DNA from: Bacteroidota bacterium
GTDB taxonomy: Bacteria > Bacteroidota > Bacteroidia > Sphingobacteriales > Sphingobacteriaceae
Assembly: GCA_013287375.1 (NCBI GenBank)
Contig: JABDDX010000001.1
Span: 1 to 64,000, forward strand
DNA: 64,000 nt
Reading direction: 5' to 3'
Shown here: positions 33,239 through 62,123 of the stretch, one piece after another
Position numbering within the stretch: the stretch's first letter is position 1
Layout: every line of letters starts with the position of its first letter
Notes under the pieces: generated by a model
Databases searched by the model: none
The model's input: only the letters and a program-made list of their open reading frames with translations
Told to the model about the DNA's origin: nothing
Position numbers and translations under genes: made by a program

Positions 33239-34198
33239 TTAATTGTAAGCATGATTTACCTCTGATGATGCTAATTGTATCTCAGGTATTCTGCTTGCTT
33301 TTTCAGCGGGTGCTTCTTTATCAATATCAAGTCGTACAACCGGGCCATCGGCGGCAAGCTCACTGCCGGGAACTTTTGATTTAAATATAGGCCAAAGCAA
33401 TTGAGCATACCATTGGTCGCCTTCGTAATGAGAGATACCGTAAGCTTTTGGATATTGGCGGGAAATTAACGCTGTACCAAAGGTAATATCCCACAAGAAA
33501 AACATATTCCCAAAATTGCCTTTATAGTAGCCTACGCCATCATCAGTAGTTGCCGCGTGATGCGCATGATGTGTTGCAGGGGTTGATATTAAACGTTCCA
33601 GCACCCAGGCAATAGGATGTAATACTTTGTATTTGTAGAAAGGCTTATCCCACGGAATACTAGAGTGGGCAAGCGTAGTAATAGTTGATTTAATTACCCT
33701 TACCGCGATAGCAGGTATACCCAAACCAAGGTAAACTAATGCTGATGTTAAATATACCTGCGAAAAGAAGAGGGTATAAATAAGATTCTGACGGCTTGCC
33801 ATTGCCATACCCATATAACTGGCCGAGTGATGGGTACGGTGAAAACGCCACAACCACGGGATCTCATGATGCAGGCGGTGATACCAGTATTGGGTTAAAT
33901 CGTCGGCAATAGCAATAATGGCGAAGCCCCACAAAAAGGGTACCCATGTAAATACATTTTTAAATCCGGGTAATACAAACGGTAAAAAGTGCAGCGCAAA
34001 GAAAGCGAATACCGGCTGTATAACCAACCGTGGCAATGCAAAGCAGGTAATATCCACCCATCTTTCGTTTTTGGGCCACTTTCTTTTATATAACCCGAAT
34101 GAAAATTCGAGTACGCCGATAAAAAATACCAGGAATGGAAATCCAAACCCATTCAGATTCTCCACTATTTTTTTAATGAACTCAATCGTTGCTTCCAT
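33239..34198 (-). CDS. Membrane di-iron hydroxylase (sterol desaturase family), locus 1
   Basis: This 319-residue integral membrane protein has the histidine boxes of the fatty acid hydroxylase/sterol desaturase superfamily: HRLHH at 107-111, HRTHH at 120-124, and HHAHH at 210-214. They bind the two irons that activate oxygen, and three or four helices come before and between. It is the last gene of a minus-strand operon: leader peptide, SusC, SusD, two small proteins, this gene. It has a close relative in locus 2 (61152). The substrate is unknown; being tied to an outer-membrane importer suggests that it acts on the imported compound. Confidence 0.9.
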   Translation of the reverse strand: MEATIEFIKKIVENLNGFGFPFLVFFIGVLEFSFGLYKRKWPKNERWVDITCFALPRLVIQPVFAFFALHFLPFVLPGFKNVFTWVPFLWGFAIIAIADDLTQYWYHRLHHEIPWLWRFHRTHHSASYMGMAMASRQNLIYTLFFSQVYLTSALVYLGLGIPAIAVRVIKSTITTLAHSSIPWDKPFYKYKVLHPIAWVLERLISTPATHHAHHAATTDDGVGYYKGNFGNMFFLWDITFGTALISRQYPKAYGISHYEGDQWYAQLLWPIFKSKVPGSELAADGPVVRLDIDKEAPAEKASRIPEIQLASSEVNHAYN

Positions 34199-34382
34199 TG
34201 TTCAAATTGATTTTGTTGGTTACTGATTTTGTGTTAGCTGCTTTTGGGGTTTTCTTTTCCCATGGTCTTTGGCCGGTTATTGTAAATGTTAAAAACATTA
34301 ATGCGATCGGCAGCAGATAGATAAACAGGCTCAGCGCCACGTTTCTTGCTATCCGCTCTTTGGTAGCTTGTTCAATTTTCAT
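34182..34382 (-). CDS. Small membrane protein of locus 1 (66 residues)
   Basis: The 66-residue protein begins MKIEQATKERIARNVALS and has a single hydrophobic helix (LFIYLLPIALMFLTFTI), then a charged tail (KTPKAANTKS). Its start shares four bases with the stop of the 57-residue gene before it (ATGA), and its last 17 bases overlap the hydroxylase gene. These overlaps are strong evidence that it is translated. No family is recognised. Locus 2 has no copy of it. It may be a partner for the hydroxylase or the SusCD pair. Confidence 0.72.
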   Translation of the reverse strand: MKIEQATKERIARNVALSLFIYLLPIALMFLTFTITGQRPWEKKTPKAANTKSVTNKINLNNGSND

Positions 34383-34552
34383 GGTTTATTAGTTTTATTA
34401 GTTTTTGAAATTTGTTGCTGTGGCTTTGGATCGCCACCTAACGCTTTTTGTGTGACCCATAGGCCACCCGCGATAATGATAAAAGGCACCAGGGTGATAA
34501 TAATACCAACCAGGATTTTTTTGCCTAAAATGGATACATCTGATAGTGTCAT
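34379..34552 (-). CDS. Small membrane protein of locus 1 (57 residues)
   Basis: An ATG at 34550-34552 starts a 57-residue protein: MTLSDVSILGKKILVGII, then a hydrophobic helix (IITLVPFIIIAGGLWV), then a Gln/Lys/Asn-rich tail. The TGA stop overlaps the next start (ATGA). It lies 28 bp after the SusD stop on the same strand, so it belongs to the operon. No family is recognised. It looks like the 66-residue neighbour in size and layout, and may be its partner. Confidence 0.72.
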   Translation of the reverse strand: MTLSDVSILGKKILVGIIITLVPFIIIAGGLWVTQKALGGDPKPQQQISKTNKTNKP

Positions 34553-34580
34553 ATATAAATTAGTTTTAATGGTTTATGAT

Positions 34581-36065
34581 TTAGTTATAGCCGGGATTTT
34601 GTTTCAGTTTTGCATTCTGCTGTATTTCTACCAGCGGAATTGGGAATAAGGTGTTTTTTGAAGTAGCTGCTGATTTTGCAGAAATTTTATGCAAGGCATC
34701 AACCAAAACTGTACCGCCCTGGCGTACCAGGTCGAACCAGCGGTGCCCTTCCTGTATAAATTCTTTTCTTCTTTCCAGAAAAACCGAATCCCTGAAAGCA
34801 GCTTGGTTTAACCCTGACGTTAAGTTGGCTATTTGGGCACGTGTTCGTACCTGGTTTATCGCGTTATAAGCATCGCTGGTTGGCCCACCGTTTATTTCAT
34901 TTAGGGCTTCTGCTTTCATTAATAATACATCCGCATAGCGCAAAACAGGGTAATTAACACCGCTAAGGGATTGTGATGATAATGGGCTAAGGCTATAATC
35001 AACAAACTTGTTAAAGTATGGCGTGTAAGCATTATTAAAAACCACATTTTGCCCTGTAGCCGCGTTATAAACGGTATTGTAAAAAGTAACCGCTCTGCGG
35101 GTGTCTTTGGCACTAAATAGGTTATATAGACTGGTATCTACAGGTATATCAATAGGGAAGGTGCCGGTGTTGAATGATGTGAAACTTTCACTCAGGTATT
35201 GTGTGCTGTTTGCTTCGCCTAAGTTGGTTTCAAACTGTACCGAGAAAATGTGTTCAACCCCATTCTTGGTTGCTTTTTGAAAAGCATCGTAATAATTAGG
35301 GAACAGTGCATAGCCATATCCACCGTTTATAACCAGATTCAGCTGTGTAAGCGCATCCGGCCAATCCTGTTGCGTTAAGTATACCTTAGCTAATAAAGTG
35401 TGCGCGGCACCCGAGGTTGCACGGCCTAAATCGGTAGCACTATATGATTTAGGCAGATTGGTAGCATCTTCTAAATCGGTAATAATCTGCGAATAAACCT
35501 GAGCAGCAGGCGTGCGTGCAGTCAGTAAATTATCAATATTGGTACTGTTAGGGTTGTGCAGTACCAGAGGCACATCGCCATACAGCCGTACAAGATTAAA
35601 ATACAGTAAGGCCCTGATAAATTTAGACTCCCTTACCAAACGCGCACGTAATGTAGTGTCCATTTGTATTGTCGGAACATTATCTATAGCGATATTGGCG
35701 CGGTTAATGCCATAATATAGCTGCTGCCAAACCTTTTGCACACGACTGTTTGCCGATATGTAGGTTTCAGTACCCAATGCTCTTACATCGGGGTTGGTAT
35801 TGCTTGGGCTATACAATTGGTTATCGCTGGCGTTTTCAACTAATAGATTTAATTGCCTGCCATATAACGGAAAGTCGCCTGCGGGATCGCTGTTTAATGT
35901 GCTGTAAACAGCATTTACAGCTGATGTAGCATCCGACGTGGTTTGATAAAACTGAGAGGATACGATAACTGATTTTGGGTCCTCCGATAATTTATTGCAG
36001 GATGTTAGCCCAGCTACTGCACCTGCCAGTAATAATAGGATTTTATATGATGATATATTTTTCAT
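34581..36065 (-). CDS. SusD/RagB family outer-membrane lipoprotein, locus 1
   Basis: The 494-residue protein has a lipobox (GLTSC, Cys23) and the layout of SusD proteins, which bind a solute and sit as a lid on the SusC channel. Visible texts: RVQKVWQQLYYGINRANIAID, then RALLYFNLVRLYGDVPLVL, then GRATSGAAHTLLAKVYLTQ, then NFPVLRYADVLLMKAEAL-like text (NYPVLRYADVLLM), and ERRKEFIQEGHRWFDLVRQG at the C-terminal end. It follows SusC by 21 bp on the same strand. It is the paralogue of the SusD at 59680. Confidence 0.95.
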   Translation of the reverse strand: MKNISSYKILLLLAGAVAGLTSCNKLSEDPKSVIVSSQFYQTTSDATSAVNAVYSTLNSDPAGDFPLYGRQLNLLVENASDNQLYSPSNTNPDVRALGTETYISANSRVQKVWQQLYYGINRANIAIDNVPTIQMDTTLRARLVRESKFIRALLYFNLVRLYGDVPLVLHNPNSTNIDNLLTARTPAAQVYSQIITDLEDATNLPKSYSATDLGRATSGAAHTLLAKVYLTQQDWPDALTQLNLVINGGYGYALFPNYYDAFQKATKNGVEHIFSVQFETNLGEANSTQYLSESFTSFNTGTFPIDIPVDTSLYNLFSAKDTRRAVTFYNTVYNAATGQNVVFNNAYTPYFNKFVDYSLSPLSSQSLSGVNYPVLRYADVLLMKAEALNEINGGPTSDAYNAINQVRTRAQIANLTSGLNQAAFRDSVFLERRKEFIQEGHRWFDLVRQGGTVLVDALHKISAKSAATSKNTLFPIPLVEIQQNAKLKQNPGYN

Positions 36066-36086
36066 TTTGTTGTGTTATGGATTTAA

Positions 36087-39000
36087 TTAAAAAGTGACAT
36101 CAACTCCCGCTAAAAATGTGCGCACAGCAGGGTAGGTGCCATAGTCAATTCCCTGTTTAGTATTGTCGTTGTCGTAAAAGTTTACTTCCGGATCTAACCC
36201 GCTGTATTTGGTTATGGTTAATAGGTTTTGGCCCGATATATAGATCCTTAATTTCTTAGCTCCAATTTTTGAAGCAAGGTTGTTGGTAAACGTGTAGCCT
36301 AATGATGCATTTTTAAGTTTTAAGTATGATCCGTTTTCTATATAACGGTCGGTTACCTGTGGCACCGGCGAGTCCGTAGCGCGTGCAACTGTACCATTTG
36401 GATTTGTCGGGCTCCATCTGTTTAATAAAGTGGCTGAGGCGTTTTGGGTAAGTGTTGGGCGTTCTAAAGTTTGCTGCAACAGGTTGAATATTTTATTGCC
36501 GTATGATCCCTGGAAGAATACTGAAAGATCAAACTGGTTGTAAGAAAACGTATTGGTGATACTACCTGTAAACTTAGGTTGGGCGCTGCCGAGGCTGTGT
36601 TTATCGGCTGTGGTAATTACCCCGTCATGGTTATAATCAACATATTTGGTATCACCTACTTTTTGTGGTACGCCATTTAAAAGCGGTACGCCTTTAGCAA
36701 TATCAGCAGCGGTTAATAAGCCCTGGGTTGAGTATCCCCAAAAAGTACCAACCGGCGAACCGACTTGTACAATTACCGGTGATACCTGCCCCGTTGGTGC
36801 TACCGGAAAATAACTGCTAACACCCGGGCCCAGGCTTAATACCTTGTTACGGTTTTCGGCAAACTCTATATTAGTTTTCCACGAAAAGTGATCTGTTTTT
36901 ACGTTATCAGTATTGATGCCTAGTTCAATACCTTTATTTTCAACACTACCTACGTTTTCTAACTCACTTGCATAGCCTGAGTATAATGGCAATGGTACAT
37001 TAAGTAAAAGATCGGTTGTTTTTTTGTAATAAGCGTCGAACGTTAGGTTAACCCGGCTATTAAATAAACCAAGATCAAGGCCGGCATCATATTGTGTAGT
37101 AGTTTCCCATTTAAGGTTTGGGTTATCTATTTGTACTGGTGATATACCGGTTACCAATTTGCTGCCAAAATAATAATTGGTTGGTGCTAATGCGGCTAAT
37201 GAGCTATATGGCGGTACCTCTGAGTTACCAGTTTGCCCAGCACTTACTCTTAGTTTTAAACTGCTGATGTCCTGTGCCAGTGGTTTAAAAAAATCGTTCC
37301 TGTCAATGTTCCATGAAAAACCTGCTGATGGGAAATAGCCCCATTTATTGTTGGCGCCTAATTTGGATGAACCATCAGCCCGTGCAGAAACAGTTAAATT
37401 ATAAATGTGCAGATAAGAGTAGTTAACCCTCGCCAAATAAGAATCTAAAGCCTGGCTGGCAAAACTTGATGTTGGCAAATTGGCCACACCTGCATAAGAA
37501 AGATTATTGTAAGAGGTTAAATCATTCGGAAATTTTTGTGCTGATGCTGTTGACGATGAAAAACGAGTGTATTGAGTGGTATAACCCGCCAGTATGTTTA
37601 AAAAGTTGGTGTTGTTAAAGGTATGATCATAAGTAAGCGTGTTCTCATTTAACCAGCTTAACTCATTACCATTTCCTATCGATGCGTAACCTTGATCGGC
37701 ATAGCCACCGGAGGTGTTCGATGGCGCATAGTAATCCTGAACGGTATTTAATATATCAACGCCTGCGGTTACCTTTAAGGTAAGGTCGGTTAATAACTTA
37801 TATTCACCGGCAACATTTCCTAATACACGTGTTAATGTGGTAGTGTTGGTTGTTTCGGTGATGTCCTGTAATGGGTTAGTTGGTGTGGGAATGTAGGGAC
37901 TATTGGTATAGTAGCTGCCATCTGGATTTGTTATTGGCGACGTCGGTGGGGTTAGTAATAAGGTTGCAAAAGCATTGCTAAAGTTAATGCTGTTGTATGC
38001 ACTGCCTACAAGCTTGTTTTCTATCGACTGACTACCAAAAACGTTGGTTGATATTTTAAACTTATCGGTTACGTTTTTTTCATAATTAACGCGTGCAGAA
38101 TACCTTTTGAACCCGGTATTTAAAATGGTACCCTCCTGATTAAAATAATTACCTGAAACCAGGTAACGGGATTTTTCATCACCGCCGGATATAGACAACT
38201 CTCCGTTATACTCAGGTGCATTCCTAAGCGCGGCATTTTGCCAGTTTGATCCGGTACCTAAAGCAGCTAATTGTGCCGGGGTGTAAGTTGGTGCAACACC
38301 ATCGCTTAAGTTTATATCATTTACTAATGATCCCCATTGTGTGGCATTTAAAAGGTCGAGTTTTTTAGCGATGGTCTGATCGCCAAAATAGCTGCTGAAG
38401 TTAACATTGTTGGTACCCTTCTTTCCTTTTTTGGTGGTGATGATAACCACACCATTGGCGCCATGCGAGCCATAAATAGCGGTTGCCGAAGCATCCTTTA
38501 ATACTTCGATGGATTCAATATCACTCGGGTTGATGGTAGATAACGCGTTTACACTGGTGCCGTTTGAACCAACATTCGCATAGTCGTTATCATTATAAAT
38601 AATAAAACCATCTATTACATAAAGCGGAGCATTACCAAAAGAAATAGAGTTACCGCCGCGCACCCTGATGGTAGCGCTACTGCCCGGCTGCCCGGAATTT
38701 TGTGTAACAGCTACGCCAGATACCGCACCTTGCAACAAATTATCAAATGAGGCGGCAGGCTGATTTAAGATGTTTTTGGGTACTGAGCCGATAGCGCCTG
38801 TTAAATCGCTTTTCTTCTGTGTACCGTAACCTACTACAACTACATCATTCAGTTGGGCAATGTTTTCGGCAAGTTGTATATTAACCGGCGTGCCGTTGGC
38901 AACAACTTCTTTTGTTTTATAGCCAATAAAGCTTACTACTAAAGTGTAAGGCAATTTCTGACCGGTAACAAATATAAAGTGGCCATTTGAGCCTGTAGTT

Positions 39001-39200
39001 ACCTCATGCGTAACGTTTTTTATACGTAGGGTAACACCTGCAATTGGTTGCCTGGTAACGCTATCAACAACGGTACCTTCAATCCTGGAGTTAATAACGG
39101 GTACATCTTTTTGCGCGAAGGCAGAGAAAGGTATAATTAAGAATAAAAGGGCTTTTAAAAACTTATTTAGTACGTGTTTTGCATGGATATATATTTCCAT
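36087..39200 (-). CDS. SusC/RagA family TonB-dependent transporter, locus 1
   Basis: This 1037-residue outer-membrane channel starts MEIYIHAKHVLNKFLKAL, with a signal peptide ending SAFA|QK. It then has a carboxypeptidase-regulatory-like domain (EGTVVDSVTRQPIAGVTLRI), the TonB box-near text NDVVVVGYGTQKKSDLTGA, a plug with LYVIDGFIIYNDND and SIEVLKDASATAIYGS, and a 22-strand barrel ending VDVTF. It imports a ligand with SusD at the cost of TonB energy. The ligand is not a clear polysaccharide: no glycosidase is in the operon. It is preceded by a conserved structured leader and a poly-Cys ORF. Confidence 0.96.
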   Translation of the reverse strand: MEIYIHAKHVLNKFLKALLFLIIPFSAFAQKDVPVINSRIEGTVVDSVTRQPIAGVTLRIKNVTHEVTTGSNGHFIFVTGQKLPYTLVVSFIGYKTKEVVANGTPVNIQLAENIAQLNDVVVVGYGTQKKSDLTGAIGSVPKNILNQPAASFDNLLQGAVSGVAVTQNSGQPGSSATIRVRGGNSISFGNAPLYVIDGFIIYNDNDYANVGSNGTSVNALSTINPSDIESIEVLKDASATAIYGSHGANGVVIITTKKGKKGTNNVNFSSYFGDQTIAKKLDLLNATQWGSLVNDINLSDGVAPTYTPAQLAALGTGSNWQNAALRNAPEYNGELSISGGDEKSRYLVSGNYFNQEGTILNTGFKRYSARVNYEKNVTDKFKISTNVFGSQSIENKLVGSAYNSINFSNAFATLLLTPPTSPITNPDGSYYTNSPYIPTPTNPLQDITETTNTTTLTRVLGNVAGEYKLLTDLTLKVTAGVDILNTVQDYYAPSNTSGGYADQGYASIGNGNELSWLNENTLTYDHTFNNTNFLNILAGYTTQYTRFSSSTASAQKFPNDLTSYNNLSYAGVANLPTSSFASQALDSYLARVNYSYLHIYNLTVSARADGSSKLGANNKWGYFPSAGFSWNIDRNDFFKPLAQDISSLKLRVSAGQTGNSEVPPYSSLAALAPTNYYFGSKLVTGISPVQIDNPNLKWETTTQYDAGLDLGLFNSRVNLTFDAYYKKTTDLLLNVPLPLYSGYASELENVGSVENKGIELGINTDNVKTDHFSWKTNIEFAENRNKVLSLGPGVSSYFPVAPTGQVSPVIVQVGSPVGTFWGYSTQGLLTAADIAKGVPLLNGVPQKVGDTKYVDYNHDGVITTADKHSLGSAQPKFTGSITNTFSYNQFDLSVFFQGSYGNKIFNLLQQTLERPTLTQNASATLLNRWSPTNPNGTVARATDSPVPQVTDRYIENGSYLKLKNASLGYTFTNNLASKIGAKKLRIYISGQNLLTITKYSGLDPEVNFYDNDNTKQGIDYGTYPAVRTFLAGVDVTF

Positions 39201-39322
39201 ATATTTAAATGTTTTATGTTAATGATTCAATTCGTTCGTAAAACTTTGATGATCAGTGTGTGATTCGCAGTCGTTGCTGATCCATCATGTAATTAACCGG
39301 CAAGGCTTCCTTGCCGGTTTGT
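39183..39322 (-). promoter_or_regulatory. Conserved structured leader of SusC, locus 1
   Basis: This block is almost identical to 56421-56561 in front of the second SusC. It has a perfect 10-bp hairpin (ACCGGCAAGG, loop AAG, CCTTGCCGGT; 39296-39318), then TGATGGATCAG pairing with CTGATCATCA, then a stem (TATGGA with TCCATG) that holds the SusC start codon. Two copies kept alike in an otherwise divergent gap argue for an RNA-level function. Confidence 0.75.
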
Positions 39323-39563: not shown

Positions 39564-39616
39564 CGAATATATAAAATAATCTACATATTCTACTAAATAT
39601 GTAGATTTTATAGAAT
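39564..39616 (-). promoter_or_regulatory. Promoter and palindromic site of the locus 1 leader
   Basis: On the minus strand, a -7 box TATATTCG (39571-39564) stands 18 bp before the leader ATG. The site TCTACATATTTAGTAGA (39605-39589) ends 17 bp upstream of the box. A second half-site makes it part of a 30-bp inverted array (39587-39616). No -33 TTTG is present, so activation may depend on the bound protein; a repressor is equally possible. Confidence 0.7.
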
Positions 39617-53889: not shown

Positions 53890-53930
53890 TCTACTAAATT
53901 TGTAGAGTATTTAAAAAATTATTACATTTG
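53890..53930 (+). promoter_or_regulatory. Promoter and palindromic site of leader 3
   Basis: TCTACTAAATTTGTAGA (53890-53906) ends 16 bp before a -7 box TACATTTG (53923-53930). This matches the layout at the two SusC loci and at 55652-55695. The box ends four bases before the leader ATG, so the message may be leaderless. Confidence 0.75.
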
Positions 53931-53934
53931 TGCC

Positions 53935-53973
53935 ATGATTACGTCCCCAAAAAAATGTTATTGTTGTCTTTAA
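53935..53973 (+). CDS. Short Cys-rich leader peptide 3
   Basis: A 12-codon frame reads MITSPKKCYCCL, with three Cys (TGT) among the last five codons. It lies between the palindromic promoter and the papain-like gene (39 bp further). It is shorter and less rich in Cys than the SusC leaders but has the same place and end composition. No attenuator hairpin is seen in the 39 bp that follow. Confidence 0.55.
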   Translation: MITSPKKCYCCL

Positions 53974-54012: not shown

Positions 54013-55026
54013 ATGAATTTTCGATTTAACTTCCTTTTTCTTATTGTACTGATTATTTGCCTTTCTGGCCAGATAGCCTCAGCGCAATCACCTGTTTATT
54101 TAACGTCAGTTAACGAACACCCCAGGCATAGCGGCAATGTTATTGAGGCTGAAATAAAGTTAAATACGAATTTAACCAAGGCAGAGCAAAGAAAACAGCT
54201 CATTACTTACCTGAAAGATGTGGAGACAGGTAATGTCAATTATAATCCGGCGAGGATTAAACGCCTGTATTACCTGGCCAATTTATTAACCCGGCTAAGG
54301 CTTTACCCGCTGGCAATGAAATGCTTTTTTAAAACGATGCAGCCGGAGACTGACAGTCTCGCTACAGCTGATCTTCCTATCACTTTAAAAGATGATTCTT
54401 TGCTTGAGAAACAAGAAAATTTACTTGGTGCCGATACGGATAAAGAAATCAGCAGTAAGCCCATCAGCAATGAAAAGATCAGCGAAACATTTGATGATGG
54501 TAAAACCGCTATCGCTTATGCGCTGGTTTTTCATGTTAAACAACCTGTTCGCGGCAAACCCAAAATTTTCAAACTGGCTAATACGGGTCACACCTTTATT
54601 ACCCTTATCAAATATAATTCCGACTCTACCTATGCGGCTATTTCCTACGGATTTTACCCTAAAAAGGATAACCCGCTTTCGGCCACACCGCTTATTCCTT
54701 CAACGTCTTCTACATTCAAAGATGACTCGGAACATGCCTGGGATGAGGTTTTGGGTAAATTTATTTCCAAACGTCGTTTTAATAAAATATTGGCGCTCAC
54801 CCGGCAATATCATAACATCGCTTACCATCTTAGTAAAAATAACTGTACCGACTTTGGTTTAAAGGCAGCTGCGCTGGCAGGGCTCAAGGTTTGGGATACC
54901 AAAGGCAGCTGGCCATTGGGTAGTGGTAATAATCCCGGTGTCACCGGGCAAAGCTTGCTCGAAGGCAAGTTTGATAATACCGATACCGGCGACAGACAAA
55001 ATTTATTGATCACCAACAGGAATTAG
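54013..55026 (+). CDS. Exported protein with permuted papain-like fold
   Basis: The 337-residue protein has a signal peptide (ends IASA|QSP). The key residues come as His193 in NTGHTFITLIKY first and Cys278 in NNCTDFGLKAAALAG later. That order, His before Cys, is typical of circularly permuted NlpC/P60 (LRAT/YaeF-like) cysteine hydrolases. The linker contains acidic and Lys-rich text of no clear type. It may cut amide or ester bonds in the periplasm. It lies behind the Cys-rich leader 3 and its palindromic promoter, so it seems to be controlled with the SusCD-hydroxylase loci. Confidence 0.65.
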   Translation: MNFRFNFLFLIVLIICLSGQIASAQSPVYLTSVNEHPRHSGNVIEAEIKLNTNLTKAEQRKQLITYLKDVETGNVNYNPARIKRLYYLANLLTRLRLYPLAMKCFFKTMQPETDSLATADLPITLKDDSLLEKQENLLGADTDKEISSKPISNEKISETFDDGKTAIAYALVFHVKQPVRGKPKIFKLANTGHTFITLIKYNSDSTYAAISYGFYPKKDNPLSATPLIPSTSSTFKDDSEHAWDEVLGKFISKRRFNKILALTRQYHNIAYHLSKNNCTDFGLKAAALAGLKVWDTKGSWPLGSGNNPGVTGQSLLEGKFDNTDTGDRQNLLITNRN

Positions 55027-55651: not shown

Positions 55652-55695
55652 ATTCTATTAAATCTATAGATTTAATAGAATATTTTATATATTTG
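55652..55695 (+). promoter_or_regulatory. Orphan promoter with 30-bp perfect palindrome
   Basis: A 30-bp perfect palindrome (55652-55681; arm ATTCTATTAAATCTA) contains TCTATTAAATCTATAGA (55654-55670), which ends 17 bp before a -7 box TATATTTG (55688-55695). It is the cleanest copy of the site found at both SusC leaders and at leader 3. Confidence 0.8.
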
Positions 55696-55700
55696 TATCA

Positions 55701-55806
55701 GGTAATTGAAAATTTTTATTTGACTGACCTCATAATAATTGTCTTCTCATCTAGGTTTATAATTGGTTGTAAAGAGTTCCTGCCCATCAGGAGCTCTTTC
55801 TTTTTT
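55701..55806 (+). ncRNA. Candidate small RNA, about 105 nt
   Basis: Transcription from the -7 box at 55688-55695 would start near 55701 and stop at the intrinsic terminator 55771-55806. No ORF with a proper start is found in it. A stretch ACTGACCT followed by AATTG and TCTCA is shared in order with the locus 2 leader near 56309-56335, so it may be a leader whose gene was lost, or a regulatory RNA. Confidence 0.5.
55771..55806 (+). terminator. Intrinsic terminator of the orphan RNA
   Basis: A 12-bp stem (AAAGAGTTCCTG with CAGGAGCTCTTT, one G-U pair) has a 5-nt loop and is followed by CTTTTTTT. No gene lies between the promoter at 55688-55695 and this terminator. Confidence 0.88.
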
Positions 55807-55907
55807 ATGTTGATATAAGAAAGTACTCCTTAAAATCTGTTTAAAACTATCGTCACTTGCGAGCGAAGCATGGCAATCCCCGACTATATAGATGTAAAAC
55901 TATGTTA

Positions 55908-55977
55908 TTGCGAGGAACGAAGCAATCGCACGCAGAAACCCACCTTGCAAAGTTCGCGATTGCTTCGTTCCTCGCAA
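55908..55977. repeat. REP-like palindromic repeat
   Basis: TTGCGAGGAACGAAGCAATC (55908 on, 22-bp arm) and its reverse complement (55956-55977) form a perfect inverted pair. A degenerate relative precedes it at about 55850-55885 (GGCAATCCCCGACT) and matches the element near 49800. This is the GCGAGGAACGAAGCAATC family common in Bacteroidota. Confidence 0.85.
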
Positions 55978-56049
55978 TGACACTTGATTTTTTGTGTTTA
56001 TATATAAAAGCAACATTCAATCATTTTTAAACAACTTCTTGGATGTCTT

Positions 56050-56144: not shown

Positions 56145-56196
56145 ATTCTATAATTCCTATATATATTATAGAATATAAAAAGAAATTATATATTTG
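56145..56196 (+). promoter_or_regulatory. Promoter and palindromic site of the locus 2 leader
   Basis: ATTCTATAA (56145-56153) and TTATAGAAT (56166-56174) are the ends of a 30-bp inverted array. Its 17-bp core (56156-56172, CCTATATATATTATAGA) ends 16 bp before a -7 box TATATTTG (56189-56196). The fit to the other sites is weaker in the core but equal in layout. The box ends 18 bp before the leader ATG, as in locus 1. Confidence 0.65.
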
Positions 56197-56214: not shown

Positions 56215-56289
56215 ATGACAACATTTTTACGTCACCCCCTTTCTTTTGTTCATGTTGCTCAGCAGAACTGCTGTACCTGTTGTTGTTAA
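56215..56289 (+). CDS. Poly-Cys leader peptide, locus 2
   Basis: A 24-codon frame begins MTTFLRHPLSFVHVAQQ and ends NCCTCCC: five Cys codons (TGC TGT, then TGT TGT TGT) in the last six. The place, start distance and Cys tail match the locus 1 leader, while the rest of the peptide differs. This is what is expected if only translation through the Cys codons matters. The SusC start follows 253 bp later. Confidence 0.78.
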   Translation: MTTFLRHPLSFVHVAQQNCCTCCC

Positions 56290-56420: not shown

Positions 56421-56561
56421 GCAAACCGGCAAGGAAGCCTTGCCGGTGAATTACCTGATGGATCAGCAACGACTGCGAATCACACACTGATCATCAAAGT
56501 TTTACGAACGAATTGAATCATTAACATAAAACACTTATATATATGGAAATATATATCCATA
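56421..56561 (+). promoter_or_regulatory. Conserved structured leader of SusC, locus 2
   Basis: This is near identical to 39183-39322 (reverse strand). It has the perfect hairpin ACCGGCAAGG-AAG-CCTTGCCGGT (56425-56447), the pair TGATGGATCAG / CTGATCATCA, and TATGGA (56542-56547) with TCCATA (56556-56561), which holds the SusC ATG (56543) in a stem. Confidence 0.75.
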
Positions 56562-59500
56562 CTAAACGTTTTCTTTCCGGGATTATTGGCGTCCTGTTAT
56601 TTCTAGCCATTCCTGGTACGGTCTTCGGCCAAACAGAAGTTCCGATCATTAACTCCAGGATCGACGGTATTGTTACCGATAGCACCACCAGGCAACCCAT
56701 AACCGGCGTAGTATTACGAATTAAAGGCGTAACGCACGAGGTAGTTACCGGTTCCGACGGCCGTTTTAGTTTTGTTACCGGGCAAAAATTGCCTTATACA
56801 CTAGTGGTTAGTTTCATTGGGTATAAAACCAAAGAGGTGTATGCCACGGGCAGCCCGGTCAATATCCAATTATCAGATAAGGTATCACAACTAAACGATG
56901 TAGTTATTGTAGGTTATGGTACACAAAAGCGAAGCGATATTACAGGTGCTATATCCACGGTACCCAAATCAAATTTAAGCCAGGTTTCCTCATCGGTTGA
57001 TAACTTATTAAGAGGTGCCGCTCCGGGGGTGCAGGTTACCCAAAGTTCTGGTCAGCCGGGTGCATCCGCCAGTGTCAGGATACGTGGTGGTAACTCCATT
57101 ACCGGCGGAAACGAGCCGCTATATGTTATTGACGGATTTCCGGTATATAACGATAATACCACTATCAGCAGCAGTGCAGGTACAGGCGGCGCTGTAAATG
57201 CATTATCAACCATAAATCCTTCGGATATTGAATCGATAGAGGTGTTAAAGGATGCATCAGCAACCGCGATCTATGGTTCCAGGGGCGCAAATGGCGTTAT
57301 CATCATAACCACTAAAAAGGGTAAAAGGGGAACAAACGATGTTGCTTTTCAAACTTATTATGGCCTGCAAAAAATAAGCAAGGAAGTTCCGCTTCTAGAT
57401 GCCACACAGTGGGCTGAACTACGGAATGATATATTGGCCAGTTCTAACCAGGCCCCATCATTTACATCTGCCCAAATTGCCGCATTTGGCAAGGGAACTA
57501 ACTGGCAGGATGCCGCTTTTAGAACAGCCCCGGTAGAAAATGATGAGTTAACCTTTTCTGGCGGCGATGAAAAATCACGTTATAATATCTCCAGCAATTA
57601 TTTCAACCAGGAGGGCATTTTACTGAACACCGATTTTAAAAGGTATTCTTTAAGGTTTAATTACGATAGGGACATTTCAAAAAATTTCCACGTAGGGATT
57701 AACGCGACTACCAGTTATTCTACATCACAGGGTGCCGCATCTAACATTGCTTCCAACAGCTTAAACAGTCCTAATATTATCACCAATATATTAACTACTC
57801 CACCGGTACTTCCGGTAAAGGATGCTAATGGCAATTACGTATTGAATACCTATTCAACTACGCCATCCAATCCAATTCAGGATTTGCTATCCATTGTTAA
57901 TCAAACCAAAGTGAACAGATCATTAGGTAACCTGTTTGCCGAATATACACTGGCCCCGGGTTTAAAAGCGAAGGTTAGCCTTGGTGCCGATCTGATCAAC
58001 TCAAAGTCTAATTTTTACGCGCCGTCCTATACCGGCGATGGTTATTCAACCCTGGGTTACGCGACTGTAGGAGCAGCATCATCAAACAGCTGGCTGGATG
58101 AAAATACACTTACTTACAGCAAAACTATTAATAATGATCATGAGCTGAATATATTGGCTGGTTACACCACACAATATTTAAGCAACGAATCCCTGACCGC
58201 CGGGTCAAAAGATTTTGTGAGTAATTTAACCAGCTACAATAGTTTACAAAGTGGTTCACAAATTCTAACACCAACCTCAAACGCCTATAGCTGGGCATTG
58301 GATTCTTACCTGGCCAGGATCAACTATTCTTATCTGCATAAATATAACTTCACAGTATCAGGCAGGGCCGATGGATCATCAAGATTTGGTGCCGGCAATA
58401 AATGGGGTTATTTCCCATCAGCCGGATTTTCATGGAATGCAGGTGAAGAAGATTTCATAAAAAGTGCTCCTGTTGTAAGTAACCTTAAACTCAGGTTAAG
58501 CGCAGGTGAAACCGGAAACCAGGAAATAGGCGAATACCAATCATTAGCGCTATTCAGCCCGTTCAATTACGACTTTAATAATACACAAGTAGTAGGGCTG
58601 GCGCAAACACAGTTAGCTAACGCTGATTTAAAATGGGAGAAAACCGCGCAATACGATGGGGGTTTTGATTTAGGATTATTGGATAACAAGATAAACTTTG
58701 TTTTTGACGCTTATTACAAAAAAACTACTAACCTATTACTGGCTGTACCGGTTCCTTTATCGTCAGGATATTCTCTGTCCCTGCAAAATATTGGTAGTGT
58801 AGAAAATAAAGGGATTGAGATAGGGATAAACACCGAGAATATTAATAGCGATGGATTTGTTTGGAAAACAGCTTTAGTGTATTCTGAAAATCGAAATAAA
58901 GTACTAAGCCTCGGGAATAACGAAACCTCATTTTTTCCAACTATACCGGGTACTACTTTAGGTGTGTTACAACCTGAAATTATAAAAGTAGGATTGCCTT
59001 TGGGCACGTTCTGGGGATATAAAACTGTTGGCATATTCCAAAATGCTGCTCAAATAGCAGAATATCCGACATTGAATAGTAAGGCTAATACTAAGCCCGG
59101 CGATGTCCGTTACCAGGATACCAATAACGATGGTGTAATAACCACTGCTGATAAAACAAACCTCGGTAGTGTTCAGCCTAAATTTACCGGGAGCTTAACC
59201 AACACGTTCACCTATAAAGGGTTTGATCTGGTTGTGTTTCTGCAAGGATCATATGGTGGCAAAATTTACAATGCATTACGCCAGCAACTCGAAATCACCA
59301 ATCTTTCTCAAAATGCCTGGGGCGATGTTGCTAACCGTTGGACACCGACAAACCCAAGCAATACCATTCCACGCGCATCAAATAACCCGGTGGCCCAAAT
59401 GTCAAGTCAGTTTGTGGAAGACGCTTCTTATCTGCGCTTAAAAAACCTGGTATTAGGCTACACATTTACCAACGCGGTGTTGACAAAAATCCATGCAAAA

Positions 59501-59668
59501 CAGATCAGGCTTTATGTATCTGCCCAAAACCTGGTAACCTGGACAAAATATACCGGTTACGATCCTGAGGTAAGCAGTTTCGAGCAGAACAACACTGCAC
59601 AAGGCATCGACTATGGCGCTTACCCTAACTACAAAACCTATTTGCTTGGTTTAAACGTCACCTTTTAA
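56543..59668 (+). CDS. SusC/RagA family TonB-dependent transporter, locus 2
   Basis: This 1041-residue outer-membrane transporter is the paralogue of the locus 1 SusC. It starts MEIYIHTKRFLSGIIGVLLF, has a signal peptide ending TVFG|Q, a carboxypeptidase-regulatory-like domain (DGIVTDSTTRQPITGVVLRI), the text NDVVIVGYGTQKRSDITGA, a plug with LYVIDGFPVYNDN and SIEVLKDASATAIYGS, and a barrel that ends LGLNVTF. It should import the same kind of ligand as locus 1. It heads an operon with SusD, a di-iron hydroxylase and an arylsulfatase, so a sulfated ligand is a reasonable guess. Confidence 0.96.
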   Translation: MEIYIHTKRFLSGIIGVLLFLAIPGTVFGQTEVPIINSRIDGIVTDSTTRQPITGVVLRIKGVTHEVVTGSDGRFSFVTGQKLPYTLVVSFIGYKTKEVYATGSPVNIQLSDKVSQLNDVVIVGYGTQKRSDITGAISTVPKSNLSQVSSSVDNLLRGAAPGVQVTQSSGQPGASASVRIRGGNSITGGNEPLYVIDGFPVYNDNTTISSSAGTGGAVNALSTINPSDIESIEVLKDASATAIYGSRGANGVIIITTKKGKRGTNDVAFQTYYGLQKISKEVPLLDATQWAELRNDILASSNQAPSFTSAQIAAFGKGTNWQDAAFRTAPVENDELTFSGGDEKSRYNISSNYFNQEGILLNTDFKRYSLRFNYDRDISKNFHVGINATTSYSTSQGAASNIASNSLNSPNIITNILTTPPVLPVKDANGNYVLNTYSTTPSNPIQDLLSIVNQTKVNRSLGNLFAEYTLAPGLKAKVSLGADLINSKSNFYAPSYTGDGYSTLGYATVGAASSNSWLDENTLTYSKTINNDHELNILAGYTTQYLSNESLTAGSKDFVSNLTSYNSLQSGSQILTPTSNAYSWALDSYLARINYSYLHKYNFTVSGRADGSSRFGAGNKWGYFPSAGFSWNAGEEDFIKSAPVVSNLKLRLSAGETGNQEIGEYQSLALFSPFNYDFNNTQVVGLAQTQLANADLKWEKTAQYDGGFDLGLLDNKINFVFDAYYKKTTNLLLAVPVPLSSGYSLSLQNIGSVENKGIEIGINTENINSDGFVWKTALVYSENRNKVLSLGNNETSFFPTIPGTTLGVLQPEIIKVGLPLGTFWGYKTVGIFQNAAQIAEYPTLNSKANTKPGDVRYQDTNNDGVITTADKTNLGSVQPKFTGSLTNTFTYKGFDLVVFLQGSYGGKIYNALRQQLEITNLSQNAWGDVANRWTPTNPSNTIPRASNNPVAQMSSQFVEDASYLRLKNLVLGYTFTNAVLTKIHAKQIRLYVSAQNLVTWTKYTGYDPEVSSFEQNNTAQGIDYGAYPNYKTYLLGLNVTF

Positions 59669-59679
59669 TTCATCCAACA

Positions 59680-61122
59680 ATGAAAAAGCTATTACTATTG
59701 ATAATTACAGCAAGTATTTTAACCGCTTGCAACAAGTTGGCTGAGAATCCGACTTCATACATCACCACTACCCAATACTTTAAAACCCAGTCTGACGCTA
59801 CTGCGGGCGTAACCGCTATTTACAGCGAACTCATAAGTGATGGTACAGAACAGCCACTATACGGCAGGGAGATTAATTTTTTGGCTGATATGACAACGGA
59901 TGACCTCGCCGCAGGGCCATCGGCAATTAACCCGAATGTAAGGGCGTTAAGTTCAATAACCTACACGGCTACTGATGACAGGCTGCAGGTGATCTGGCGC
60001 CAGAATTATACTGGTATAAGCAGAGCCAATGCGGCTATCGATGCTATCCCAACCATCCAGTTTGATACCACATTAAGGTCGCGCTTAGTACGTGAATCCA
60101 AATTTTTAAGGGCCCTGTTTTACTTTAATCTGGTTCGTTTTTATGGCGATGTGCCGCTGGTGCTTCATAACCCGGCAGATGCCTCAAACCTAAGTAGCTT
60201 AAACGTTAACAGGACACCGGCAGCAACAGTATACGCGCAAATCATAGCGGATTTAACTGATGCGGAAAACCTTCCATCAAGTTATTCAGGAGCAGATATA
60301 GGGAGGGCTACGGGAGGGGCCGCGAAGTCGCTTTTGGTTAAGGTTTATTTAACCCAACAAAACTGGACGGCCACTGTAAGTAAAGCGCTGGAGGTAATTA
60401 ACGGTCCATATGGCTATGCGCTTTTCCCTAATTATGCTGATGTGTTTAATCCGGCTACAAAAAATGGTGTAGAGCATATTTTCTCTGCTCAAATATCATC
60501 AAACGGAGGGTTGGGTAACAGCAGTACCCTAATGGGGGCAAATTTTGCGGGCTTTGTTGGCAACGTACCGGCTGATATCCCGGCTGACAGCTCTGTTTAT
60601 AAACAGTTTAGTAATACTGATACGCGCAAAGCGGTTACGTTTTATACTTCATTAATTAACCCTGCAACAGGCTTGGTGTATAATTTTCCGACCTTTTATT
60701 TCGGAAAATATGTTGACAGAAGCGAACTAGCAACACCGGGACAAAGCAATATCAATTTTCCAATCCTTCGTTATGCCGATGTACTGCTAATGTACGCCGA
60801 AGCGCTAAACGAGGCTCAGGGCCCGATAGCTGCCGCATATGCCGCGCTTAACCAGGTGAGGGTTCGTGCCAATACAGGCAACCTAACTCCGGGACTTTCA
60901 CAAGCCGCATTTCGCGATTCCTTATATGCAGAACGCAGGCGCGAATTTGTACAGGAAGCCCAACGCTGGTTTGATTTGGTAAGAACCAAGCAACTGGTAC
61001 AGGCAGTATCAAAAGTTGCCTCAAAAACCAATGTCAGCACCAAGAATTACTTGTTCGCGATTCCCGCAAGTGAGATCAGCATAAACCCTGATTTAACACA
61101 AAATCCGGGCTATACCAACTAA
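59680..61122 (+). CDS. SusD/RagB family outer-membrane lipoprotein, locus 2
   Basis: The 480-residue protein has a lipobox with Cys17 (ILTAC) and SusD texts: RLQVIWRQNYTGISRANAAID, cut here to its key parts NYTGISRANAAID, then RALFYFNLVRFYGDVPLVL, then GRATGGAAKSLLVKVYLTQ, then NFPILRYADVLLMYAEAL and ERRREFVQEAQRWFDLVRT. It starts 11 bp after the SusC stop. It pairs with the locus 2 SusC and is the paralogue of the SusD at 34581. Confidence 0.95.
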   Translation: MKKLLLLIITASILTACNKLAENPTSYITTTQYFKTQSDATAGVTAIYSELISDGTEQPLYGREINFLADMTTDDLAAGPSAINPNVRALSSITYTATDDRLQVIWRQNYTGISRANAAIDAIPTIQFDTTLRSRLVRESKFLRALFYFNLVRFYGDVPLVLHNPADASNLSSLNVNRTPAATVYAQIIADLTDAENLPSSYSGADIGRATGGAAKSLLVKVYLTQQNWTATVSKALEVINGPYGYALFPNYADVFNPATKNGVEHIFSAQISSNGGLGNSSTLMGANFAGFVGNVPADIPADSSVYKQFSNTDTRKAVTFYTSLINPATGLVYNFPTFYFGKYVDRSELATPGQSNINFPILRYADVLLMYAEALNEAQGPIAAAYAALNQVRVRANTGNLTPGLSQAAFRDSLYAERRREFVQEAQRWFDLVRTKQLVQAVSKVASKTNVSTKNYLFAIPASEISINPDLTQNPGYTN

Positions 61123-61151
61123 GGTCAAATTCACACTAAAAAACAACAATT

Positions 61152-62123
61152 ATGATACATTTTATTGAAGCAATCGCTAAAAGTATAACCACCTGGGGGT
61201 TCCCTGCTTTAATCCTGTTACTCGGTGTAGTTGAATTTTCACTGGGCCTTTATGAAAAAAAGTGGACAAAAAACGAGAGCCTGCTTAATATTTTCAGCTT
61301 TGTTTTCCCACCAATTATTCTTTATCCGGTTATAGCATACCTGGGCATTAAATTTTTACCGGATGTAATACCACAATATAAAAACATATTCGCATGGGTA
61401 CCTTTTATATGGGGCTTTATTACTATAGCTATTGCTGATGATTTAACCCAATACTGGTATCACCGGCTGCATCACCAAATACCATTTTTATGGCGTTTCC
61501 ATCGTACGCACCACTCGGCGCCGTACATGGGTATGGCAATGGCCAGCAGGCAAAATATCATTTACACCTTCTTTTTTTCGCAGATATACCTTACCACCAT
61601 TTTGATATATCTTGGGTTAGGCTACCCTGCACTATTTGTTAGCGCGATAAAAATACTCATCACCACTTTTGCTCACTCAAAAATTAAGTGGGATAAGCCT
61701 TTTTATAAATATAAAATACTGCACCCGGCAGCATGGGTATTGGAAAGGCTCATATCAACCCCGGCAACGCATCATGCCCATCACTCAAGTTCAACAGATG
61801 ATGGGGTGGGTTATTACAAAGGCAACTTTGGCAATATGTTTTTTCTGTGGGATGTGATTTTCGATACCGCGCATATATCAAGGCAATACCCCGAGGCATA
61901 TGGCATCTCGCATTACGAGGGCGATGAGTGGTATGCTCAACTATTCTGGCCCATATTTAAATCCAGCAGGGAAGGCAGCGAACTGGCTAAAAGCGGACCC
62001 CCTGTACGCGAAGATATACCAGTAAAAAAAACATCGTTGGATGACTATAAGATCAAGCCGATAAAATCACAACGATTGATCTATTCCCTTACCAAAGAAT
62101 CTCTTTCAAACCCCAATAGATAA
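61152..62123 (+). CDS. Membrane di-iron hydroxylase (sterol desaturase family), locus 2
   Basis: The 323-residue protein is the close relative of the locus 1 hydroxylase. Its His boxes are HRLHH (104-108), HRTHH (117-121) and HHAHH near 207-211, and the helices are in the same order. It lies 29 bp after SusD, so it belongs to the operon. Locus 2 lacks the two small membrane proteins that come before the hydroxylase in locus 1. The substrate is unknown; a lipid-like or aliphatic imported compound is likely, given the family. Confidence 0.9.
   Translation: MIHFIEAIAKSITTWGFPALILLLGVVEFSLGLYEKKWTKNESLLNIFSFVFPPIILYPVIAYLGIKFLPDVIPQYKNIFAWVPFIWGFITIAIADDLTQYWYHRLHHQIPFLWRFHRTHHSAPYMGMAMASRQNIIYTFFFSQIYLTTILIYLGLGYPALFVSAIKILITTFAHSKIKWDKPFYKYKILHPAAWVLERLISTPATHHAHHSSSTDDGVGYYKGNFGNMFFLWDVIFDTAHISRQYPEAYGISHYEGDEWYAQLFWPIFKSSREGSELAKSGPPVREDIPVKKTSLDDYKIKPIKSQRLIYSLTKESLSNPNR

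Follow-up and report, generated by a model that had tools for sequence, protein, structure and literature searches.

The palindromic 17-mers of the form TCTAYN7RTAGA that precede TAnnTTTG promoters in the stretch of DNA analysed here (64,000 nucleotides; the window) are probably operators of a candidate CymR-like repressor of the Rrf2 family, which would close the promoters when cysteine or sulfide is ample and leave them at shortage. In Mucilaginibacter-type bacteria, the 17-mer is found at two fixed spacings from the promoter box, ahead of genes whose predicted roles are the synthesis, transport or protection of cysteine and other sulfur compounds. What is likely to be new here, judging from sequence, is a predicted CymR-type regulon to which poly-Cys leaders, additional tRNA-Cys genes and a small RNA add further layers.

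Operator sites in the window

The exact pattern occurs at four places in the window (39589, 53890, 55654 and 55663) where 0.13 are expected, and 0 of 100 dinucleotide shuffles reached four. The 17-mer at 56156–56172 departs from the pattern by one mismatch (CCTAT...), and a scan allowing one mismatch returned 10 places against 5.0 expected, a result that is weak alone as 6 of 100 shuffles reached 10. A PWM trained on genus sites, with 53890 and 55654 (both among the top places) in its training set, ranked the places in the window at 27.6 (twice), 24.7, 23.6, 15.1, 15.0 and 12.6, followed by 8.7. The original prediction of a layout shared by four promoters agrees with the sequence, in that a 17-mer lies 16–17 bp from a −7 box at all four, with the one mismatch at 56156 (Table 1). 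Two of these sites had been placed in similar arrays; the arrays are present, but the number is three, as 39589, 55654 and 56156 each have a second 17-mer 9 bp off. The 55654 array is contained in a longer palindrome. The Cys-rich leaders expected behind three of the four sites were also found (MKAFLHFHMNTLTALSIAPVQRMCCACCCC, MITSPKKCYCCL and MTTFLRHPLSFVHVAQQNCCTCCC).

Across the window's own assembly (3.1 Mb), the bare 17-mer was not enriched, with 8 places compared to 14 for the reversed control, and 4 of the 8 fall in the 64-kb window; the signal thus resides in the promoter context. Two places elsewhere in this genome, C30:27811 and C85:9030 (the latter within an ORF), were judged from their surroundings to be background. 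Two further regulon promoters were seen at C42:10662–12006 (L039), one for a 1-Cys peroxiredoxin and the other for a redoxin gene behind the leader MSYNKTIISSRYFLGLQGFKKCMMCMCCCC.

Table 1 Coordinates of operators, promoter boxes, leaders, RNA features and genes in the window.
Feature	Position	Strand	Remarks
SusC paralog	36087..39200	-	followed by SusD (34581-36065) and FA_hydroxylase (33239-34198)
Hairpin CCGGCAAGG/CCTTGCCGG	39295..39319	-	matches the 56425..56447 hairpin
Poly-Cys leader ORF MKAFLHFHMNTLTALSIAPVQRMCCACCCC	39545-39453	-	behind the 39589 site
−7 box TATATTCG	39564..39571	-	17 bp from the 39589 17-mer
Operator array	39589..39614	-	exact 17-mer 39589-39605 (PWM 24.7) and weaker 39598-39614 (PWM 12.6)
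Operator 17-mer TCTACTAAATTTGTAGA	53890..53906	+	16 bp ahead of TACATTTG; PWM 23.6
−7 box TACATTTG	53923..53930	+	
Cys leader ORF MITSPKKCYCCL	53935..53973	+	behind the 53890 site
Predicted secreted protein gene	54013..55026	+	behind leader MITSPKKCYCCL
Operator array	55654..55679	+	overlapping 17-mers 55654-55670 and 55663-55679; offset 9 bp; PWM 27.6 each
−7 box TATATTTG	55688..55695	+	17 bp from the first 17-mer (55654), 8 bp from the second (55663)
Predicted small RNA	55696..55806	+	~111 nt; 3′ module TTTATAATTGGTT..CCTGCCCATCAGGA common to relatives
Intrinsic-terminator-like hairpin and T run	55771..55806	+	end of the predicted small RNA
Operator array	56147..56172	+	one-mismatch 17-mers 56147-56163 (PWM 15.0) and 56156-56172 (PWM 15.1); offset 9 bp
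−7 box TATATTTG	56189..56196	+	16 bp from the 56156 17-mer
Poly-Cys leader ORF MTTFLRHPLSFVHVAQQNCCTCCC	56215..56289	+	behind the 56156 site
Hairpin ACCGGCAAGGAAGCCTTGCCGGT	56425..56447	+	between leader MTTFLRHPLSFVHVAQQNCCTCCC and susC
SusC/RagA TonB-linked outer membrane transporter	56543..59668	+	
SusD	59680..61122	+	
Fatty-acid-hydroxylase-family protein	61152..62123	+	

The outer two sites lead into two paralogous susC-susD-FA_hydroxylase units (33239–39200 and 56543–62123), each behind a poly-Cys leader. In each unit, the CCGGCAAGG/CCTTGCCGG hairpin lies ~100 nt ahead of susC; it was also present in 5 of 8 leaders of relatives that were folded, with a paired change to CCGGTAAGG/CCTTACCGG in the G033 copy. 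The hairpin is preceded by an A-rich run, so that the opposite strand reads as terminator-like. The predicted secreted protein behind the 53890 site matched no Pfam family, and an ortholog matched Peptidase_C97 below the cut-off. The 53890 site and its leader recur in named relatives, for example Mucilaginibacter sp. L196, where the leader counterpart is MITTEKKCYCCL, and M. oryzae. Among 11 named loci carrying an ortholog of this gene, a site with a PWM score of at least 19 precedes the gene in five (L323, L324, L325, L332 and L333), all of which have a Cys leader and four of which have TAnnTTTG at 15–16 bp; the other six showed no scoring site, perhaps since the start of the match fixed the 500-bp stretch.

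Promoter spacing across the genus

The scan proposed with the original prediction, for the 17-mer followed by TAnnTTTG, was run in 61 genomes of the genus with a spacing of 7–17 bp, and its hits proved to be non-random, with mostly sulfur, thiol or Cys features downstream. It returned 119 matches in 49 of the 61 genomes compared to 14 for the reversed pattern; the window's own genome contributes 5 of the 119, the 55654 array being counted twice. The distance between the 17-mer and TAnnTTTG is bimodal, with 67 matches at 7–10 bp (near), 44 at 15–17 bp (far) and 8 at 11–14 bp (intermediate), and the last group served as an internal control for the 111 correctly spaced sites. A site lay within an open frame of at least 150 codons in 1/67 near, 1/44 far and 5/8 intermediate matches.

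With variation allowed at either terminal base of the half-site, an extra half-site was found at an offset of exactly 9 bp 24 times upstream and 11 times downstream among the 111 sites, and no other offset between 3 and 21 gave more than 3. The distances are bimodal because the operator often consists of a pair of 17-mers offset by exactly 9 bp, which is roughly the difference between the near and far distances. The half-sites at 9 bp thus indicate that the complete operator is often a 26-bp double palindrome, of which single sites take either position.

Genes and RNA features downstream of the operators

To define what the operators precede, up to 4 kb downstream of each of the 119 genus sites was inspected, a span that contig ends shortened at some of them. 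Of the ORFs of at least 100 aa, the first three found up to 3 kb from each site were clustered and ten representatives were searched against Pfam; the tally takes in these ORFs and any RNA feature up to 4 kb away, and the eight intermediate sites provide the background. A sulfur, thiol or Cys feature, a category that includes SAM riboswitches, tRNA-Cys, poly-Cys leaders and desulfurase-like and peroxiredoxin/TlpA-type genes and leaves out SusC, PIG-L, carbonic anhydrase and the small RNA, lies downstream of 86 of the 111 correctly spaced sites (55/67 near and 31/44 far) compared to 1 of the 8 intermediate ones. Class-V aminotransferases of the cysteine-desulfurase type follow 15 of the 119 sites, AhpC-type redoxins 14, 1-Cys peroxiredoxins 13, TlpA/redoxin proteins 20 and DsbD_N proteins 9, while SusC follows 25, the small RNA 11, PIG-L deacetylase 3, carbonic anhydrase 2, and sulfite reductase and an Rrf2 gene 1 each; 15 sites have no label. 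No cysD/N or sulfatase was present among the ten Pfam-annotated representative proteins.

A regular expression for SAM riboswitches matched behind 27/119 sites, and Rfam confirmed RF00162 (SAM-I) in 7 of 14 loci submitted, the remaining 7 being small-RNA loci. Of the 119 sites, 27 have a same-strand tRNA-Cys gene no more than 4 kb away, and 32 of 34 tRNA calls behind sites were Cys, two being genes recounted from an adjacent site. Poly-Cys leaders, defined as short ORFs with clustered Cys codons shortly after a predicted promoter, occur at 35/119 sites, three of them in the window; the additional control for leaders, TAnnTTTG without a site in the same loci, gave 16/475, and several of these 16 are identical leaders read from another box.

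The tRNA-Cys pattern matched in 60 of 61 genus genomes, in many more than once. About half of the extra tRNA-Cys genes have a mismatch at acceptor position 1–72. By a simple count, in which the script placed some of the 30 same-strand genes badly, a full 7-bp Watson-Crick acceptor stem was seen in 1/30 tRNA-Cys genes behind operators (e.g. L042, L071, L079 and L126), and 16/30 have the AGTCG... form with A1 opposite G or A at 72 and U73.

A predicted small RNA behind the 55654 operator

The 55654 site is the one without a Cys leader, and leads instead into a predicted small RNA (Table 1). Its 3′ module, TTTATAATTGGTT...CCTGCCCATCAGGA, was found in 39 of 61 genus genomes, with 0 control hits, and an operator with a PWM score of at least 10 lies upstream of the small RNA in 14 of 30 loci read (L293–L322). 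In relatives, the RNA has a tRNA-like 5′ domain comprising an acceptor-like stem, a D-like hairpin and a T-arm, which is absent from the copy in the window; GGTTCGA, the core of this domain, is present in 12 of the 14 operator-linked loci. The family combines a shared 3′ module with 5′ domains that vary and in some cases are tRNA-like.

In an alignment of 11 sequences, 92.7% of cells are paired in the proposed structure compared to 40–49% when it was slid, a comparison that is inflated because the structure was proposed from the same 11 sequences. Five pairs are changed on both sides, which 13 of 500 shuffles reached, and the number of pair types was not above that of shuffles (280/500 reached the same number). 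RNAalifold alone recovered the acceptor-like stem and the terminator, with inner pairs that differ from the proposed T-arm and D-like hairpin. A search with 4227 Rfam covariance models gave no match at gathering and nothing overlapping 55696–55806 at E ≤ 1, and the other family members tested likewise matched no Rfam family.

NagB, which follows some of the small-RNA sites, was left out of the targets, as it starts 528–638 nt off, past the small-RNA terminator. An imperfect inverted repeat of the ATTGCGAGGAACGAAGCAATC type is located at 55888–55997; Rfam microRNA matches there scored below gathering, overlap the repeat and were taken as spurious.

A class-A Rrf2 protein as the candidate regulator

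Of the 61 genomes of the genus, 58 gave a PF02082 (Rrf2) hit above the cut-off; the window's own assembly, at 58.5% completeness, yielded no Rrf2 gene. A class-A query assembled by eye from sequences of the genus scored 118.7 bits against TIGR00738 (cut-off 73.3) and thus belongs to the Rrf2 superfamily, while it scored 83.1 bits against the CymR model NF047409 and 70 bits against the IscR model TIGR02010, below their cut-offs of 195 and 207.55. Its solved relatives are 4cic, 3lwf, 2y75 and 3t8r. Four cysteines (91, 100, 103 and 109) are invariant in all 67 aligned rows, which comprise 66 hits (class A′ included) and the query, and their x8-x2-x5 spacing differs from the spacing that we take the [2Fe-2S] cluster ligands of IscR to have.

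The presence of class A is correlated with that of the operators. Class A (at least 118 bits) occurs in 60 of 295 phylum genomes, and correctly spaced sites (7–9 or 15–17 bp) were present in 23 of these 60 compared to 5 of the 235 others (p = 1.1e-13, relatedness ignored), a split of 23 genomes with both, 5 with sites only, 37 with Rrf2 only and 230 with neither. Wrongly spaced matches lean to class-A genomes less strongly (11/60 compared to 12/235, p = 0.002), so that part of the co-occurrence reflects relatedness or base composition. G010, the sole near-complete genus genome without an Rrf2 hit, has no site either. Of the 12 genomes in the genus that lack a strict site match, 11 still have an Rrf2 hit above the cut-off.

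Sites also lie next to the class-A gene itself. An exact site is located within ~105 bp of the gene in G206, G262 and G061, which represent three families. As the first adjacency controls were largely coding and favoured AT-rich gaps, the test was redone with dinucleotide shuffles. Among the 30 class-A loci that scored best in the phylum search, of which three belong to the genus and another four to the family, the stretch of 250 bp behind the gene reached p < 0.05 in 17/30 (combined 4e-17) and the one before it in 7/30. The corresponding numbers for 30 genus loci were 12/30 (combined 6e-8) and 10/30, and the sites are mostly degenerate, with a median PWM score of −1.35 behind and −1.75 before; the putative autoregulatory sites of the genus are individually weak and significant as a set (10/30 at p < 0.05). 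Among the genes next to class A, read from sequence, are those for sulfite reductase, cysH-like, DUF2061-like, permease and peroxiredoxin proteins. The earlier guess of an Rrf2-type (CymR/IscR-like) regulator is therefore supported by co-occurrence and adjacency, which make Rrf2 the candidate regulator of the 17-mer. Several genomes carry multiple Rrf2 types (A, A′, NsrR-like and other), so that the binder could be a paralog. One class-A′ gene (L057, G015:C15), which is divergent from another transcription unit, has its own operator upstream.

Sites outside the genus

A search of 296 phylum genomes, own included (80% completeness requested), returned 62 matches outside the own genome. Of these, 28 loci were inspected and all but L241 were parsed; 13 of the 27 parsed loci lie within genes and represent background. 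In other families, sites precede units that by eye are CysK-like (L245), CysQ-like (L253) and peroxiredoxin (L239), a SAM-riboswitch-like unit (L258) and a poly-Cys leader (L237). Within the genus and its family, they precede SAM-riboswitch-like leaders (L260 and L261), also named by eye.

Proposed mechanism and alternatives

In the mechanism that we propose, a class-A dimer would occupy each 17-mer, and the 26-bp arrays would hold two adjacent dimers. The repressor would cover the −33 region and keep the promoters shut while cysteine or sulfide is plentiful, to be released on shortage, possibly through sensing by the four cysteines via an Fe-S cluster, a metal or a thiol. Near sites presumably fall between the −7 and −33 regions and far sites cover the latter, positions that fit steric repression; it is because of the near sites that we infer repression rather than activation. 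At the three protein-coding sites of the window, stalling at the run of Cys codons may add a second layer that reports uncharged tRNA-Cys, while the 55654 operator is predicted to drive the small RNA in place of a protein gene. Passages of PMC3828012 describe CymR as a repressor that acts when cysteine is plentiful, and repression at ample cysteine would operate here by analogy.

The same Rrf2 protein could instead be an IscR-like Fe-S or oxidative-stress switch, with a regulon that follows Fe-S or redox status and not cysteine supply. This alternative, which we consider possible but doubtful, draws on the four invariant cysteines, located in the half in which IscR is taken to carry its cluster ligands, and on targets such as the 1-Cys peroxiredoxins, TlpA/DsbD_N proteins and cysteine desulfurase-like genes. 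However, the SAM riboswitches, tRNA-Cys genes, poly-Cys leaders, sulfite reductase and cysH-like neighbours indicate sulfur amino acids, and the CymR model outscores that of IscR (83 compared to 70 bits, both below cut-off). An Rrf2-type activator, whose dimer in the far position would aid RNA polymerase where a promoter lacks a good −33 box, is unlikely: the site does cover the region expected to be −33 in both distance classes, with the boxes positioned as we assume, and IscR is known to activate some promoters, but 67 of the 119 sites end 7–10 bp before the −7 box, too close for ordinary activation. The closest solved relatives, moreover, include CymR, a repressor according to passages of PMC3828012. 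We regard it as quite unlikely that a regulator of another family binds the site and that the Rrf2 link is indirect, with sulfur operons clustering with the Rrf2 gene anyway. Motif families can resemble one another, OxyR and CysB-type regulators also govern thiol genes, and the window assembly (58.5% complete) yielded no Rrf2, but against this stand the exact sites beside class-A genes in three families and the class-A′ gene with its own upstream site.

Relation to known systems

The candidate CymR-like repressor resembles CymR of Bacillus subtilis and Staphylococcus aureus in its Rrf2 relationship by sequence, with PDB 2y75 and 3t8r among the top matches, and in a regulon, predicted here from sites, of cysteine metabolism and sulfur genes. 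A CymR equivalog would also be expected to form a complex with CysK and to be released by O-acetylserine. It differs in its score (83 bits compared to a model cut-off of 195), in the four invariant cysteines, which have no Cys opposite in the two CymR chains as aligned, in the 9-bp double palindrome, and in a regulon that adds TonB transporters, tRNA-Cys and the small RNA. With IscR, RirA and NsrR, class A shares a Cys-bearing C-terminal half and a cysteine desulfurase-like target, whereas its score (70 bits compared to the IscR cut-off of 207.55), the x8-x2-x5 spacing and the mostly sulfur amino-acid and thiol targets set it apart.

Attenuators with poly-Cys leaders occur in mycobacteria and other Actinobacteria, where an operon is preceded by a short ORF with a run of Cys codons at its end. 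The leaders described here have the same arrangement, but they occur in Bacteroidota, behind an Rrf2-type operator and before susCD or redoxin genes, and a conserved hairpin often precedes susC; their attenuation is putative. The S-box (SAM-I) riboswitch RF00162 lies directly behind 7 of these operators, and here is joined to a palindromic operator, with a tRNA-Cys gene next in 6 of the 7 loci. Among the literature matches listed for Rrf2/CymR and Bacteroidetes, none describes a sulfur master regulator for Bacteroidota, and no literature joining tRNA-Cys, Bacteroidetes and riboswitch was found.

The predicted regulon is broader and has more layers than the original prediction described, and supplies a candidate protein, an operator and a geometry for sulfur regulation in Bacteroidota. 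It would tie TonB/SusCD uptake to cysteine supply and would join tRNA-Cys genes, poly-Cys leaders and an Rfam-less small-RNA family to one predicted promoter switch, and it makes tRNA-level cysteine sensing in the phylum directly testable. We tentatively raise a broader scheme, a three-tier cysteine sensor in which one Rrf2 double-palindrome operator would control thiol enzymes and TonB transporters and, in addition, the elements of the readout: the extra tRNA-Cys genes, poly-Cys leaders that would sense the charging of these tRNAs, and the Rfam-less tRNA-like small RNA family, which would relay or titrate the signal. If this were true, cysteine-tRNA would be a regulatory currency in Mucilaginibacter, beyond its role as a translation substrate.
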